In this document: piece by piece, positions 17,109 through 45,788 of the stretch
Layout of the letters: every line of letters begins with the position of its first letter
Numbering within the stretch: the stretch's first letter is position 1
Assembly: GCF_030406045.1 (NCBI RefSeq)
Contig: NZ_CP128988.1
Span: 248,001-312,000, forward strand
DNA: 64,000 bases
Source of the DNA: Thiohalobacter sp. IOR34
GTDB lineage: Bacteria; Pseudomonadota; Gammaproteobacteria; Thiohalobacterales; Thiohalobacteraceae
Reading direction: 5' to 3'
The notes under the pieces: model-generated
The model's database searches: none
What the model was told of the DNA's origin: nothing
What the model saw: only the letters and a program-made list of their open reading frames with translations
Translations under genes and position numbers: made by a program

Positions 17109-18803
17109 ATGCGTCAGCCACGCCTTTTCACCGCCGTTCTCGCAGGCTGGCTGTTGCTTGCCAGCCTTCCCCTCGCCGCCGCCTCGCCACCCCGGGCCGC
17201 CGTTGCCAGTGCCCATCCACTGGCCACCCGGGCCGGCCTGGAGATCCTCGCCGCCGGCGGCAACGCCTTCGATGCGGCGGTGGCGGTCAGTGCCGCGCTG
17301 GCGGTGGTCGAGCCCTACAGCTCGGGGCTGGGCGGGGGTGGTTTCTGGCTGCTGCACCGGGCGCGGGACGGCTTCGAGGTCATGGTCGACGGCCGCGAGC
17401 GGGCGCCGCTGGCGGCCCGGCGCAACATGTTCCTCGATGCCGAGGGACGGCCGGTGCCCGGGCTGTCGATGGACGGTCCGCTGGCCGCCGGCATCCCCGG
17501 CGAGCCGGCCGCCCTGGCCCACATCGCCGCCCGCTATGGCCGCCTGGGCCTGGCGCGTGACCTGGCGCCGGCGATCCGCCTGGCCCGTGAGGGCTTTGCC
17601 GTGGATGGTCACTACCGGCGCCTGGCCGGCTTCCGGCGCGACGTGCTGCGCCGCTTCCCTGCCGCCGCGGCCCGGTTCCTGATCGCTGGCGAGGTGCCGC
17701 CGGAAGGGCACATCATCCGTCAGCCGGATCTGGCCCGCACCCTGGAGGCGCTGGCCAGCCGGGGGCACGAGGGGTTCTATGGCGGCGCGCTGGCGCGGCG
17801 CCTGGTCGAGGGGGTGCGCGCCGCCGGCGGTATCTGGACCCTGCGCGACCTGGCCGAATACCGGGTGGTGGAGCGCGAGCCGCTGCGTGGGGAGTACCGG
17901 GGCATCCGCGTCACCAGCGCTGCACCGCCGTCCTCGGGCGGGGTCGCCCTGATCACCCTGCTCAACATCCTCGCCGGCTACGACCTGGCTGCATTGGACG
18001 AGGCGGGCCGCGTCCATCTGCTGGTGGAGGCCATGCGCCGCGCCTACCGCGACCGCGCCCAGTACCTGGGCGACCCCGATTTCGTCGACATGCCGCTCGA
18101 GCGCCTTACCCATCCCTTCTATGCGGCCGGCCTGCGCGCCGCCATCCGTCTCGACCGGGCCCTGCCGAGCAGCCTGCTGGCGCCGGTGGCGCCGCCACGC
18201 GAGGGGCCGCACACCACGCACTTCTCCATCCTCGACACCGAGGGCAACCGGGTCGCCGCCACCCTGTCCATCAACTACCCTTTCGGCTCCGGCTTTCTGG
18301 TGCCGGGCACCGGGGTGCTGCTGAACGACGAGATGGACGACTTCTCGATCAAGCCGGGGGTGCCCAACGTCTATGGCCTGGTCGGCGCCGAGGCCAATGC
18401 CATCGCCCCCGGCAAGCGCATGCTCTCCAGCATGACCCCGACCTTCCTCGACGACGGGGAGCGGCTGGCCATCCTCGGCACCCCCGGCGGCAGCCGGATC
18501 ATCAGCATGGTGCTGCTCGCCACCCTGGAGTTCGCCGCCGGCCGCGAGCCGGCCGCCTGGGTGGCGCGGCCGCGCTTCCATCACCAGTATCTGCCGGATG
18601 CCATCCAGTTCGAGCCCGGCGCCCTGGCGCCGGCGCTGCAGCGGCGGCTGGAGGCCATGGGCCACCGCCTGCGGCCGCTGGACGCCCCCTACGGCAACAT
18701 GCAGGCCGTGCTCTGGGATCGGCGGAACGGGCGGGTGCTGGCCGCCAGCGATCCGCGCGGGGTGGGGGCGGCGCGGCTAGCAGCCTGTCGGACTCAGGAC
18801 TGA
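17109..18803 (+). CDS. ggt: Gamma-glutamyltransferase (Ntn hydrolase)
   Basis: Periplasmic enzyme that cleaves or transfers the gamma-glutamyl group of glutathione. 564 residues with a signal peptide (LAGWLLLASLPLAAA). It is synthesised as a proenzyme and should self-cleave before the Thr in GPHTTHFSILD, which gives the nucleophile. The small subunit keeps LSSMTPTF and GTPGGSRIISMVL. The start at 17109 gives a normal signal; an ATG at 17070 is an alternative. The last eight codons and the TGA stop lie inside the 165-bp hairpin repeat that begins at 18779, so the tail LAACRTQD is repeat-derived. Confidence 0.93.
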   Translation: MRQPRLFTAVLAGWLLLASLPLAAASPPRAAVASAHPLATRAGLEILAAGGNAFDAAVAVSAALAVVEPYSSGLGGGGFWLLHRARDGFEVMVDGRERAPLAARRNMFLDAEGRPVPGLSMDGPLAAGIPGEPAALAHIAARYGRLGLARDLAPAIRLAREGFAVDGHYRRLAGFRRDVLRRFPAAAARFLIAGEVPPEGHIIRQPDLARTLEALASRGHEGFYGGALARRLVEGVRAAGGIWTLRDLAEYRVVEREPLRGEYRGIRVTSAAPPSSGGVALITLLNILAGYDLAALDEAGRVHLLVEAMRRAYRDRAQYLGDPDFVDMPLERLTHPFYAAGLRAAIRLDRALPSSLLAPVAPPREGPHTTHFSILDTEGNRVAATLSINYPFGSGFLVPGTGVLLNDEMDDFSIKPGVPNVYGLVGAEANAIAPGKRMLSSMTPTFLDDGERLAILGTPGGSRIISMVLLATLEFAAGREPAAWVARPRFHHQYLPDAIQFEPGALAPALQRRLEAMGHRLRPLDAPYGNMQAVLWDRRNGRVLAASDPRGVGAARLAACRTQD

Positions 18804-18943
18804 TCTACTGCGCGGGTGGGAGAGCGGCCCGAATCTTCACGATTTCTCGTTGCGTAGTGCCCACTATGCGCCTCGAAATCGTGAAGATTCGTTCTCGTTC
18901 TCCCACCCTGCTCGCTACGATCGCCTAAGTCCGACAGGCTGCT
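18779..18943. repeat. 165-bp hairpin element, copy 1
   Basis: The ends AGCAGCCTGTCGGACT and their inverse (18924-18943) match at 19 of 20 bases. Inside, further paired segments (GGGTGGGAG/CTCCCACCC, GAATCTTCACGATTT with its inverse, GCGTAGTG/ACTATGCGC) make nearly the whole element fold as one hairpin. The second copy is at 43956-44120, the same length with two base differences that I can see. It joins element D at a CTAG. Confidence 0.85.
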
Positions 18944-19196
18944 AGCCCGGATATTGCACCAAGCCGGTCCGCATGATCGGCGTGCAGGCTGGTAAACGGA
19001 TCGGGAACGCGTAACCCGGCTTTTGTCTGTTCGATTGGCCCCGGGCATTGCCCGCCGTGGATTCCCCGATCGCGGCCTGGAGACCGCTCCTACGACAACA
19101 CATTGTGCCGCCATGCTCCGTAGGAGCGGTCTCCAGGCCGCGATCCCCGGCGGGTCCGGCCAGGCCATCATCCGGGGCCGGATGCAATATCCGGGC
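18943..19196. repeat. Composite inverted-repeat element D with REPIN
   Basis: The left arm (18943-18967) joins the 165-bp element at CTAG and the right arm is at 19183-19196. REP pair at 19069-19093 and 19120-19144. It lies between the convergent ggt and mutM genes, where no conventional terminator is seen. Confidence 0.85.
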
Positions 19197-28647: not shown

Positions 28648-28902
28648 AGCCCGGATATTGCACCAAGGCGGCCCGCATGATCGGCATGCAGGCTGGTATT
28701 AACCCGGCTTTGTGCCTGTTCGATACGCCGGCCATTGCACGCCGTGGATCCCCCGATCGCGGCCTGGAGGCCGCTCCTACAGGTCACGGCACAATGTGTT
28801 GTCGTAGGAGCGGTCTCCAGGCCGCGATCGAGGCGCAAGGGGTACCGCGCCATCCTGCCACCCCGGCCCACGGAGCCTGCCTTGGTGCGATATCCGGGCT
28901 AG
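28648..28902. repeat. Composite inverted-repeat element E with REPIN (most complete copy)
   Basis: Outer arms at 28648-28673 and 28880-28902; REP pair at 28756-28780 and 28804-28828. The two flanks between outer arm and REP differ from each other, so the element has a left and a right side. It fills the gap between the convergent hydantoinase and EAL/HDOD genes. I see no other terminator there. Confidence 0.87.
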
Positions 28903-37008: not shown

Positions 37009-37273
37009 AGCCCGGATATGGCACCAAGGCAGGCTCCGTGGGTCGGGGTGGCAGGATGGCGCGGTACCCCTTGCGCCTCGATCGCGGCCTGGAGACCGCT
37101 CCTACGCCAACACATTGTGCCGCCATGCCCTGTAGGAGCGGCCTCCAGGCCGCGATCGGGGGATCCACGGTGGGCAATGCAATGCCCGGAGTCAATCGGA
37201 CAGGCACAAAGCCGGGTTAATACCAGCCCGCACGCCGATCATGCGGGCCGCCTTGATGCAATATGCGGGCTAG
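37009..37273. repeat. Composite inverted-repeat element F with REPIN
   Basis: Outer arms at 37009-37033 and 37251-37273; REP pair at 37081-37105 and 37132-37156. It is inserted in the opposite orientation to element E, so its left flank is the inverse of E's right flank. It lies between the convergent argB and DUF4124 genes, and its outer arm supplies the TAG stop of the latter. Confidence 0.86.
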
Positions 37274-43662: not shown

Positions 43663-43760
43663 AACCCGCCCAGGGGGCCTTTCATGGCCATATCGTCCCT
43701 GTATTGCAGCACGCCCCCCTTCATGCGCGCCGCCTTGGTGCAATATCCGGGTTAACCCGG
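43663..43760. repeat. Half-element, inverted copy of positions 42-139
   Basis: An outer arm plus flank that aligns along about 95 bases, in reverse, with the left half of element A. It is joined directly to the next module at TTAACCCGG, showing that half-elements are exchanged as units. Confidence 0.7.
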
Positions 43761-43956
43761 CTTTGTGCCTGTTCGATTGACCCCGGGTATTGCCCGCCGT
43801 GGGTCCCCCGATCGTGGCCTGGAGGCCGCTCCTACAGGTCACGGCACAATGTGTTGTCGTAGGAGCGGCCTCCAGGCCGCGATCGAGGCGCAAGGGGTAC
43901 CGCGCCATCCTGCCACCCCGGCCCACGGAGCCTGCCTTGGTGCCATATCCGGGCTA
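43761..43956. repeat. Composite inverted-repeat element G with REPIN
   Basis: The left flank lacks its own outer arm. REP pair at 43811-43835 and 43859-43883. The right outer arm (43935-43956) runs into the second 165-bp hairpin element at CTAG. Confidence 0.83.
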
Positions 43957-44120
43957 GCAGCCTGTCGGACTCAGGACTGATCTACTGCGCGGGTGGGAGA
44001 GCGGCCCGAATCTCCCCGATTTCTCGTTGCGTAGTGCCCACTATGCGCCTCGAAATCGTGAAGATTCGTTCTCGTTCTCCCACCCTGCTCGCTACGATCG
44101 CCTAAGTCCGACAGGCTGCT
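43956..44120. repeat. 165-bp hairpin element, copy 2
   Basis: Same length and nearly the same sequence as 18779-18943. The visible differences are two bases in the left stem (TCTCCCCG here, TCTTCACG there), which break pairing in this copy. Its right end touches the TAG stop codon of yggU. Confidence 0.85.
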
Positions 44121-44397
44121 AGCAGCCGGGCGGCAGTCGCCGCGGGGCGTGGATGCGCAGCTGTTTGCTGCGGCTGCCGTGGCCGGACAGCAGCTCGACG
44201 CGGGAGGGGGCGACGCCGCAGGCATCGGCCAGGAAACGGATCAGGTGGCGGTTGGCCTTGCCGTCGGCCGGTGGTGCGGTGATACGGATCTTCAGACGCT
44301 CGCCGTGCACGCCGGCAAAGCCGTCCTGCCGGGCGCGGGGCTGGACGTGCACGCTGAGGATCAGGTCCTCGCCGTCCCAGCGGTACCAGCCGGGCAT
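44119..44397 (-). CDS. yggU: DUF167 family protein YggU
   Basis: 92 residues. LSVHVQPRARQDGFAGVHGERLKIRITAPPADGKAN is the DUF167 signature. Its start overlaps the yggT stop by one base (TGATG). It is the last gene of yggS-proC-yggT-yggU. The stop codon TAG lies at the edge of the 165-bp hairpin element, and the final residues LPPGC may differ from the ancestral end. Function unknown. Confidence 0.92.
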   Translation of the reverse strand: MPGWYRWDGEDLILSVHVQPRARQDGFAGVHGERLKIRITAPPADGKANRHLIRFLADACGVAPSRVELLSGHGSRSKQLRIHAPRRLPPGC

Positions 44398-44960
44398 CAG
44401 AGCAGCAGGCGGAACAGCGGCAGGACCAGCATCTTCAGCACCTGCAGGGCGATCAGGGCCAGCAGCGGGCTGAGGTCGAGGCCACCGATCGGCGGCAGCA
44501 GGCGGCGTGCCGGGCGCAGCACGGGCTCGTTGAGGGCGTGCAGCAGGGCGGTGACCGGGTTGTAGGCGCCGGGATTCACCCAGCTGAGGATGGCCTGGAT
44601 GATGATCGAGAAGACGAACACGTTGAACAGCAGGCTGACCAGTTCGGCAATGCTTACCACCAGCAGTGTCCAGGGCGAGAAGGCGCCGCCGCGCAGCAGC
44701 AGGATCAGCGCCACGGCGGCCATCTGCACCAGCAGCATGAGCACGATGGCGGCGCTGTCGATGCGCCCCAGCGGCGGAATCAGCCGGCGCAGCGGCAGCA
44801 GCGGCGGATTGGTGATCTTGACCAGGAACTGGCTGACGGGGTTGTAGAAATCGGCCCGTACCCAGGCCAGCAGGGTGCGCAGCATGATGGCCAGCACATA
44901 GAGGTCGAACAGGGTGCTGATCAGGAACTCCAGGGGGGAGATGAGATAGCCGGCACCCAT
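44397..44960 (-). CDS. yggT: YggT family membrane protein
   Basis: 187 residues with two YGGT repeats. Each has a hydrophobic pair around a RADFYNPVSQFLVKITNPPLLPLRR or NPGAYNPVTALLHALNEPVLRPARR motif. By family knowledge it is linked to osmotic or cell-shape functions and often sits with yggS. There is no gap to proC, so it is translationally coupled. Confidence 0.93.
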   Translation of the reverse strand: MGAGYLISPLEFLISTLFDLYVLAIMLRTLLAWVRADFYNPVSQFLVKITNPPLLPLRRLIPPLGRIDSAAIVLMLLVQMAAVALILLLRGGAFSPWTLLVVSIAELVSLLFNVFVFSIIIQAILSWVNPGAYNPVTALLHALNEPVLRPARRLLPPIGGLDLSPLLALIALQVLKMLVLPLFRLLL

Positions 44961-45788
44961 CTACTGTTCCCCCAGCTGGCGGGCCAGCTCCTCGGAACGG
45001 TCGCGGGCCGCCCGCAGGGCCCGCTGCAGCAGCTCGCGCAGCCCCCCCTCTTCCAGCACCTGCAGGGCGCGTTCGGTGGTGCCGCCCGGGGAGGTGACCT
45101 GCTGGCGCAGCACCGCCGGCCCCTCGCTGCACTCGAGCGCCGTCTTGGCGGCGCCGAAGGCGGTCTGCAGGGTCAGCAGTCGGGCGGTCTCGGCCGGCAG
45201 GCCGAGGGACTCGCCGGCCGCCTGCAGGGCCTCCATGACCAGGAAGAAATAGGCCGGGCCGCTGCCGGAGAGGGCGGTGACGGCGTCCATCAGGGCCTCG
45301 TCTTCCAGCCACAGGGTGAGGCCGACGGCGCGCAGGATGGATTCGGCCAGGTCGCGCTGTTCGGCGCTGACCCGGGGATTGGCATAGAGAGCGGTAGCGC
45401 CGCTCTGCACCAGTGCCGGGGTGTTCGGCATGCAGCGCACCACCGCTGCCTCGCCGCCCAGCCAGCGTTCCAGGTCGCCGCTGCGGATGCCGGCGGCGAT
45501 GGAGATCACCAGCGGCTGCCCGGCCGTGACCTGTGGCGCCAGTTGCTGCGCCACCTGGTGCATGACCTGGGGCTTGACCGCCAGCAGCAGCACGTCGGCG
45601 CCTTCGGCGGCTGCACGGTTGTCCGCGAAGGTGGCGACGCCGAAGGCCTCGCCCAGCCCTTCGAGGCGGGCAGGGTCGGGGTCGGCGACGCGCATCCGGC
45701 CGGCCGGCAGGCCGTCGCTGATCAGGCCGCCGATCAGGCTGCGGGCCATGTTGCCGCCGCCGATAAAACAGATGATTTTCTCGTTCAT
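44961..45788 (-). CDS. proC: Pyrroline-5-carboxylate reductase
   Basis: Last step of proline synthesis. 275 residues. NAD(P)H-binding FIGGGNMARSLIGG at the N-terminus, VRCMPNTPALV, and the signature ALSGSGPAYFFLVMEAL with TSPGGTTERAL. The start MNEKIICFIGGG is the family one. It lies between yggS and yggT. Confidence 0.97.
   Translation of the reverse strand: MNEKIICFIGGGNMARSLIGGLISDGLPAGRMRVADPDPARLEGLGEAFGVATFADNRAAAEGADVLLLAVKPQVMHQVAQQLAPQVTAGQPLVISIAAGIRSGDLERWLGGEAAVVRCMPNTPALVQSGATALYANPRVSAEQRDLAESILRAVGLTLWLEDEALMDAVTALSGSGPAYFFLVMEALQAAGESLGLPAETARLLTLQTAFGAAKTALECSEGPAVLRQQVTSPGGTTERALQVLEEGGLRELLQRALRAARDRSEELARQLGEQ

Follow-up and report, generated by a model that had tools for sequence, protein, structure and literature searches.

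A 161-bp hairpin element with ISAzo2-like ends, a 4-bp target duplication and a conserved fold, very probably a non-autonomous IS1182 MITE

In the window (the whole stretch of DNA that was analysed, 64 kb), two near-identical hairpins each meet a REPIN-bearing repeat at a CTAG, one with the repeat on its right and the other with the repeat on its left. The question is what kind of element the hairpin is, what moved it, and whether it belongs to the REPINs beside it. The initial annotation described two 165-base copies of equal length that differ at two bases, fold as a single hairpin and are joined to their neighbour at CTAG, and all of this held. The differing bases are positions 59 and 61 of the 165, the joint is CTAG at both loci, and the 171-nt stretch around copy 1 folds at -61 kcal/mol, with an average of -24.5 for shuffled versions (z = -13.4). 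The 165 bases can be refined to a natural unit, a 161-bp core with CTAG on either side that starts with CAGCCTGTCGGACT and finishes with AGTCCGACAGGCTG. Copy 1 has its core at 18781..18941, between a left CTAG at 18777..18780 and a right CTAG at 18942..18945 that doubles as the border of the neighbouring repeat. The core of copy 2 lies at 43958..44118, between a left CTAG at 43954..43957 that is common to the neighbour's end and a right CTAG at 44119..44122. Both cores were assigned to the minus strand by their best score on the family model R1, which was 177.9 bits on the minus and 89.4 bits on the plus strand for copy 1 (18777-18945) and 176 bits on the minus strand for copy 2 (43954-44122). 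The core is too small for a transposase gene, holds none, and contains no REP sequences. About 41 copies are present in the genome of the window (one contig, 2.96 Mb), and 18 of them form a young set with 97-100% identity. Plasmids searched with the hairpin DNA gave no match.

The 4-mers flanking the element are equal in 17 of the 18 young copies, with 15 CTAG, one TTAG (L011) and one TTAA (L018); the single unequal copy is flanked by CTGG and CTAG. Because both borders match in the 17 copies, TTAG and TTAA included, the target rule is a 4-bp YTAR duplication, usually of CTAG. The initial annotation had proposed insertion at a CTAG target and named copies lacking CTAG at their borders as the observation that would speak against it. 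Such copies do exist (TTAG/TTAG and TTAA/TTAA); having equal 4-mers left and right, they broaden the target rule to YTAR and leave the proposal unrefuted. CTAG itself is rare, with 15 occurrences in the window. Insertion is further supported by an empty site: when the flanks of a hairpin copy in a second genome (L042, genome G008) are joined with a single 4-mer, their alignment to the corresponding site in a congeneric sister species (L373) has no gap at the joint. This is the one clean empty site for the hairpin itself among three candidates. The other two were set aside as clean cases, L053 for several gaps and L060 for a right flank that is a second hairpin fragment. An IS1182 element with the same terminal inverted repeat (TIR) on a Pseudomonas plasmid gave a second kind of empty site, where more than 100 related plasmids match the flanks once these are joined by a single CTAG, the best hits at about 89% identity and equal in length; the two sites that were inspected base by base are gapless at the joint.

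The empty sites of the hairpin and of the plasmid element fit a 4-bp duplication, and neither fits the loss of a target. Target loss would be expected if the hairpins had entered by stem-loop replacement, in which a target palindrome is removed without any duplication and the hairpin itself would also serve as an IS1182 target. IS1272, a member of the IS1182 family, replaces stem-loops in this manner (PMC5678879). That family membership, the position of the hairpins at the foot of an inverted-repeat element and the palindrome next to the L060 site in a sister genome would all suit such a process, but the equal 4-mers, TTAG and TTAA among them, do not, and the gapless joints at both kinds of empty site mean that nothing was replaced. 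Stem-loop replacement is largely refuted for these copies and is considered very unlikely. Two copies lie on stop codons. The right CTAG of copy 2, read on the minus strand, contains the TAG stop (44119-44121) of the open reading frame at 44119-45312, which has a YggU/DUF167-like tail, and a copy in a sister genome (L062, near 1501-1504) is placed on the TAG stop of a chemotaxis-receptor-like gene. A CTAG duplication preserves the stop codon, so that a CTAG at a stop codon may be a harmless target.

The neighbour at both loci is a repeat, here called C, that is about 245 bp long and has the inverted ends CCCGGATATTGCACCAAG. Beside copy 1 it occupies 18946..19195 on the plus strand (250 bp, MITE-like, inverted ends CCCGGATATTGCACC..., borders CTAG and CAGG) and carries a REPIN of two inverted 27-nt REPs at 19068..19145. 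Beside copy 2 a C-type repeat at 43756..43953 has a diverged left end with a TTAA border and a right end ...TATCCGGG followed by CTAG, and its REPIN lies at 43806..43888. The genome contains 439 C ends, equivalent to about 220 elements, and examples in the window are found at 45-289, 18946-19195, 28650-28898 and 37011-37269. The 4-mers flanking C are equal in 23 of 28 cases with YTAR on both sides; a parent of C was not found. C encloses a REPIN at both hairpin loci of the window, but does so in only 13 of the 40 C elements examined. The earlier statement that the hairpin is joined to the REPIN family is to be corrected, as the actual neighbour is C, a separate YTAR-flanked MITE with a REPIN in some of its copies.

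All 18 young hairpins adjoin a C end, each on exactly one side, with the sides split 11:7. This constancy, together with the presence of REPINs and of a RAYT gene beside a REP array in the genome, could mean that the hairpin and C/REPIN are one composite mobile unit, or that the hairpin belongs to the REPIN system and is moved by the RAYT. Either is highly improbable, because the 4-mer at the joint covaries with the outer 4-mer (CTAG, TTAG or TTAA), C is found on either side of the hairpin, solo C elements have their own equal 4-mers and most C elements carry no REPIN. Moreover, the hairpins inspected in sister genomes mostly lack a neighbouring C, and C borders 6 of the 13 pre-insertion CTAG sites in the window, so that availability accounts for much of the adjacency. 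The RAYT was also rejected as the mobiliser of the hairpin for want of matching ends. The simplest account is that the hairpin and C both use YTAR, each leaving new targets for the other, and that the hairpin/C/REPIN mosaic consists of nested elements, two of them with a common target. The reverse nesting is seen at three loci (L074, L077 and L078), where a short hairpin arm CAGCCTGTCGGACT runs into TTAG and then into a C end or CCCG; here C looks to have been inserted at TTAG within the hairpin arm, the remainder of the hairpin being gone. The RAYT-type gene (Y1_Tnp; L110, G000:C1:2573848-2577171) stands beside a REP array with a spacing of about 93 bp. The REP core of the array is that of the REPINs in the window, of which this gene is probably the cognate RAYT.

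The outer 18 bp of the hairpin, CTAG included, are identical to both ends of IS1182-family elements in Bradyrhizobium, a Verrucomicrobiia MAG and a Pseudomonas plasmid. Elements with the same TIR were found in Bradyrhizobium erythrophlei (two copies of 1605 bp), in a Verrucomicrobiia MAG (1650 bp), in Aromatoleum aromaticum EbN1, whose ISAzo2 carries all 18 bp of the hairpin on one side and the outermost 15 bp on the other, and in Pseudomonas, Methylobacter and Marinobacter plasmids; CTAG bounds both ends of all of them. Transposases beside such ends score 362 and 375 bits (L141 and L143) on NF033551, for which the family cut-off is 270 bits, and NCBI annotates such elements as 'IS1182-like element ISAzo2'. 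IS1182-type genes also lie next to the same TIR in hairpin-bearing genomes (G101, G183, G285, G360 and others). Identity between the hairpin and the IS1182 elements ends after about 18-22 bp, and beyond the ends the interior has no similarity to these insertion sequences. Since only the ends match, the interior is no obvious deletion product, and the hairpin would be a type II and not a type I MITE. No IS1182 transposase above the NF033551 cut-off was found in the genome of the window or in its sampled family; a cognate transposase in the same genome is not a strict requirement for a MITE. A literature search by the TIR strings found no paper on bacterial repeats in the collection searched, and a search on MITEs and IS1182 had IS1272 as its sole relevant return.

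Candidate parents within the genome of the window were rejected. The ends of its DDE_Tnp_1 elements are unrelated to the hairpin (GGAACCTCTGATCAAT with YTAR flanks, TGTCCGGA and GGGCGTGTTAACAC), and a pair of TIRs 1.1 kb apart at genome positions 925947-927056 encloses an ordinary membrane-protein-like gene and no transposase. The insertion sequence that has GGAACCTCTGATCAAT as its ends and encodes a DDE_Tnp_1 transposase of 335 aa (L086, L089 and L090) is flanked by CTAG or CTAA pairs, as checked at L089 and L090, making it the third element in this genome to use YTAR targets.

Taken together with the fold described below, the hairpin is very probably a non-autonomous IS1182 (ISAzo2-like) MITE that is moved in trans, duplicates 4 bp at YTAR, has C elements as neighbours and probably has a selected fold. 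We infer that an ISAzo2-like transposase is what moves it. This DDE transposase, supplied in trans, would bind the terminal repeat (CAGCCTGTCGGACT, or GAGYCTGTCGGACT) and put the element into a YTAR site, usually CTAG, where host fill-in would yield the 4-bp duplication. The abundant C, which follows the same target rule, would offer YTAR on both sides, hairpins would land at its feet, and the composite would result. The latest burst may have used an ISAzo2-like transposase that has since been lost from the genome.

The element is widespread. A sample of 369 gammaproteobacterial genomes had the TIR with YTAR in 61 of them, compared with only about ten control matches, and often in inward pairs 168-169 bp apart. 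An exact scan of GTDB contigs for the TIR pattern added, among the matches listed, loci from betaproteobacteria, alphaproteobacteria, Verrucomicrobiota and other groups. When 29 elements from gamma- and betaproteobacteria were made into a covariance model, it matched in 54 of 398 genomes from a phylum-wide sample, chiefly in a single family (f207) of another class, possibly Zetaproteobacteria. The elements there are mostly 167-169 bp long with CTAG ends, and a subset has the TIR altered on both arms (GGAGGCTGTCCGAGAATAG / CTATTCTCGGACAGCCTCC). Many gamma- and betaproteobacteria, as well as members of another class, hold elements of the same architecture, nearly always 167-170 bp in length. Other elements with the TIR were also seen. 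Opitutaceae MAGs (L154, L157, L178, L204 and L206) contain an element of 125-126 bp that keeps the TIR and the CTAG ends but has a different interior; these are independent MITEs of the same transposase group, and their existence means that a common TIR does not equal a common fold. The Betaproteobacteria MAG JACPTK01 has tiny solo hairpins made of two TIRs only (CTAGCAGCCTGTCGGACCCAAGTCCGACAGGCTGCTAG, 38 bp) as well as nested variants (L221 from 5061, L155 near 7375 and L166 near 852). The hairpin-type TIR is also present on two IMG/VR contigs (L435 and L436).

The fold was examined in alignments of elements with the hairpin's architecture. In the 35-element alignment, where the length is 167-169 and the interior identity 0.38 to 0.93 (median 0.58), 94.8% of the cells are paired and double-sided changes occur at 43 of the 58 pairs. 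Double-sided changes account for 350 cells, compared with 109 +/- 7 in shuffled and at most 107 in slid controls, and the 29-element alignment gave the same picture (215 vs 62 in shuffles). Although the shuffles leave the relatedness of the elements in place, a covariation artefact is unlikely in view of the slid controls and of how large the effect is. Conservation is also found outside the pairs, with 17 unpaired columns conserved at 85% or more and G29, A97 and A140 of alignment A3 at 100%. The model prefers one strand by about 2:1 in bits (copy 1: 178 vs 89), which indicates that the two arms are not equivalent.

Pairing of this kind could persist in an ordinary MITE with an unselected fold if it were kept by intra-strand templated repair (quasipalindrome correction). 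The correction of one palindrome arm from the other is a known mutational process and would yield covariation without function, but it would also wipe out asymmetric bulges, yet G29, A97 and A140 do not vary, and arm polarity is maintained between classes while the paired columns drift. Repair alone is thus possible and on balance unlikely, and selection on the fold, which explains both the pairing and the bulges, is favoured. A structured RNA gene or a bidirectional host terminator, spread by recombination and not by transposition, would likewise combine a strong hairpin with covariation, and the location of copies at gene ends, one of them on a stop codon, would suit it. We consider it improbable in view of the target duplications, the insertion-sequence ends, the multi-copy identity inside each genome and the empty site; a search of Rfam gave no family match at the gathering score, only chance microRNA hits. 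The hairpin appears to be a MITE with a selected fold. Selection would act on the folded form, either single-stranded hairpin or cruciform DNA or the same fold in RNA, and most likely does so because the fold is required for the element's own spread or renders that spread tolerable.

Bacterial MITEs are mostly taken as passive leftovers of insertion sequences, confined to a single species or genus. In the present case a single architecture of 168 bp is found again and again across many proteobacterial families. The compensatory stem changes and fixed unpaired bases are the signature of a selected fold and pose the question of whether a DDE transposase or a host factor reads the folded element. 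A tentative and rather doubtful extension, drawn by analogy, is that this deeply conserved mobile hairpin is a DDE-type MITE relying on folded DNA (or RNA) much in the manner of integron attC sites, the folded strand with its unpaired bases and polarity being the substrate for a transposase or host protein.

Among known systems, the hairpin is like ISAzo2 and its IS1182 relatives in having CTAG flanks of 4 bp and, at each end, the repeat CTAG[CG]AG[CT]CTGTCGG[AG]CT; unlike the hairpin, those elements are about 1.55-1.65 kb long, carry a transposase gene and have no interior hairpin. With IS1272 it has in common the IS1182 transposase family and the involvement of palindromes, but it shows a 4-bp duplication in place of stem-loop replacement; the enzyme group named by the analysis is ISAzo2-like IS1182. 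It resembles bacterial MITEs such as ERIC, Correia/NEMIS, QMITE2 of Coxiella and MITEAba12, being short and non-coding, with inverted ends, a target duplication and many intergenic copies. It differs from them in that its members are spread over several genera and families and at least two classes, with a length that hardly changes, unpaired bases that stay fixed and a stem that covaries. REPINs and their RAYTs are comparable as short palindromic mobile repeats of the same intergenic regions, whereas the hairpin has other ends, another target rule and another enzyme, and no REP. In integron attC sites the paired arms vary while unpaired bases and polarity are conserved. The hairpin is similar in these respects, a likeness in how the two may work; unlike attC, it has no integrase or cassette context and has the ends of an insertion sequence instead.
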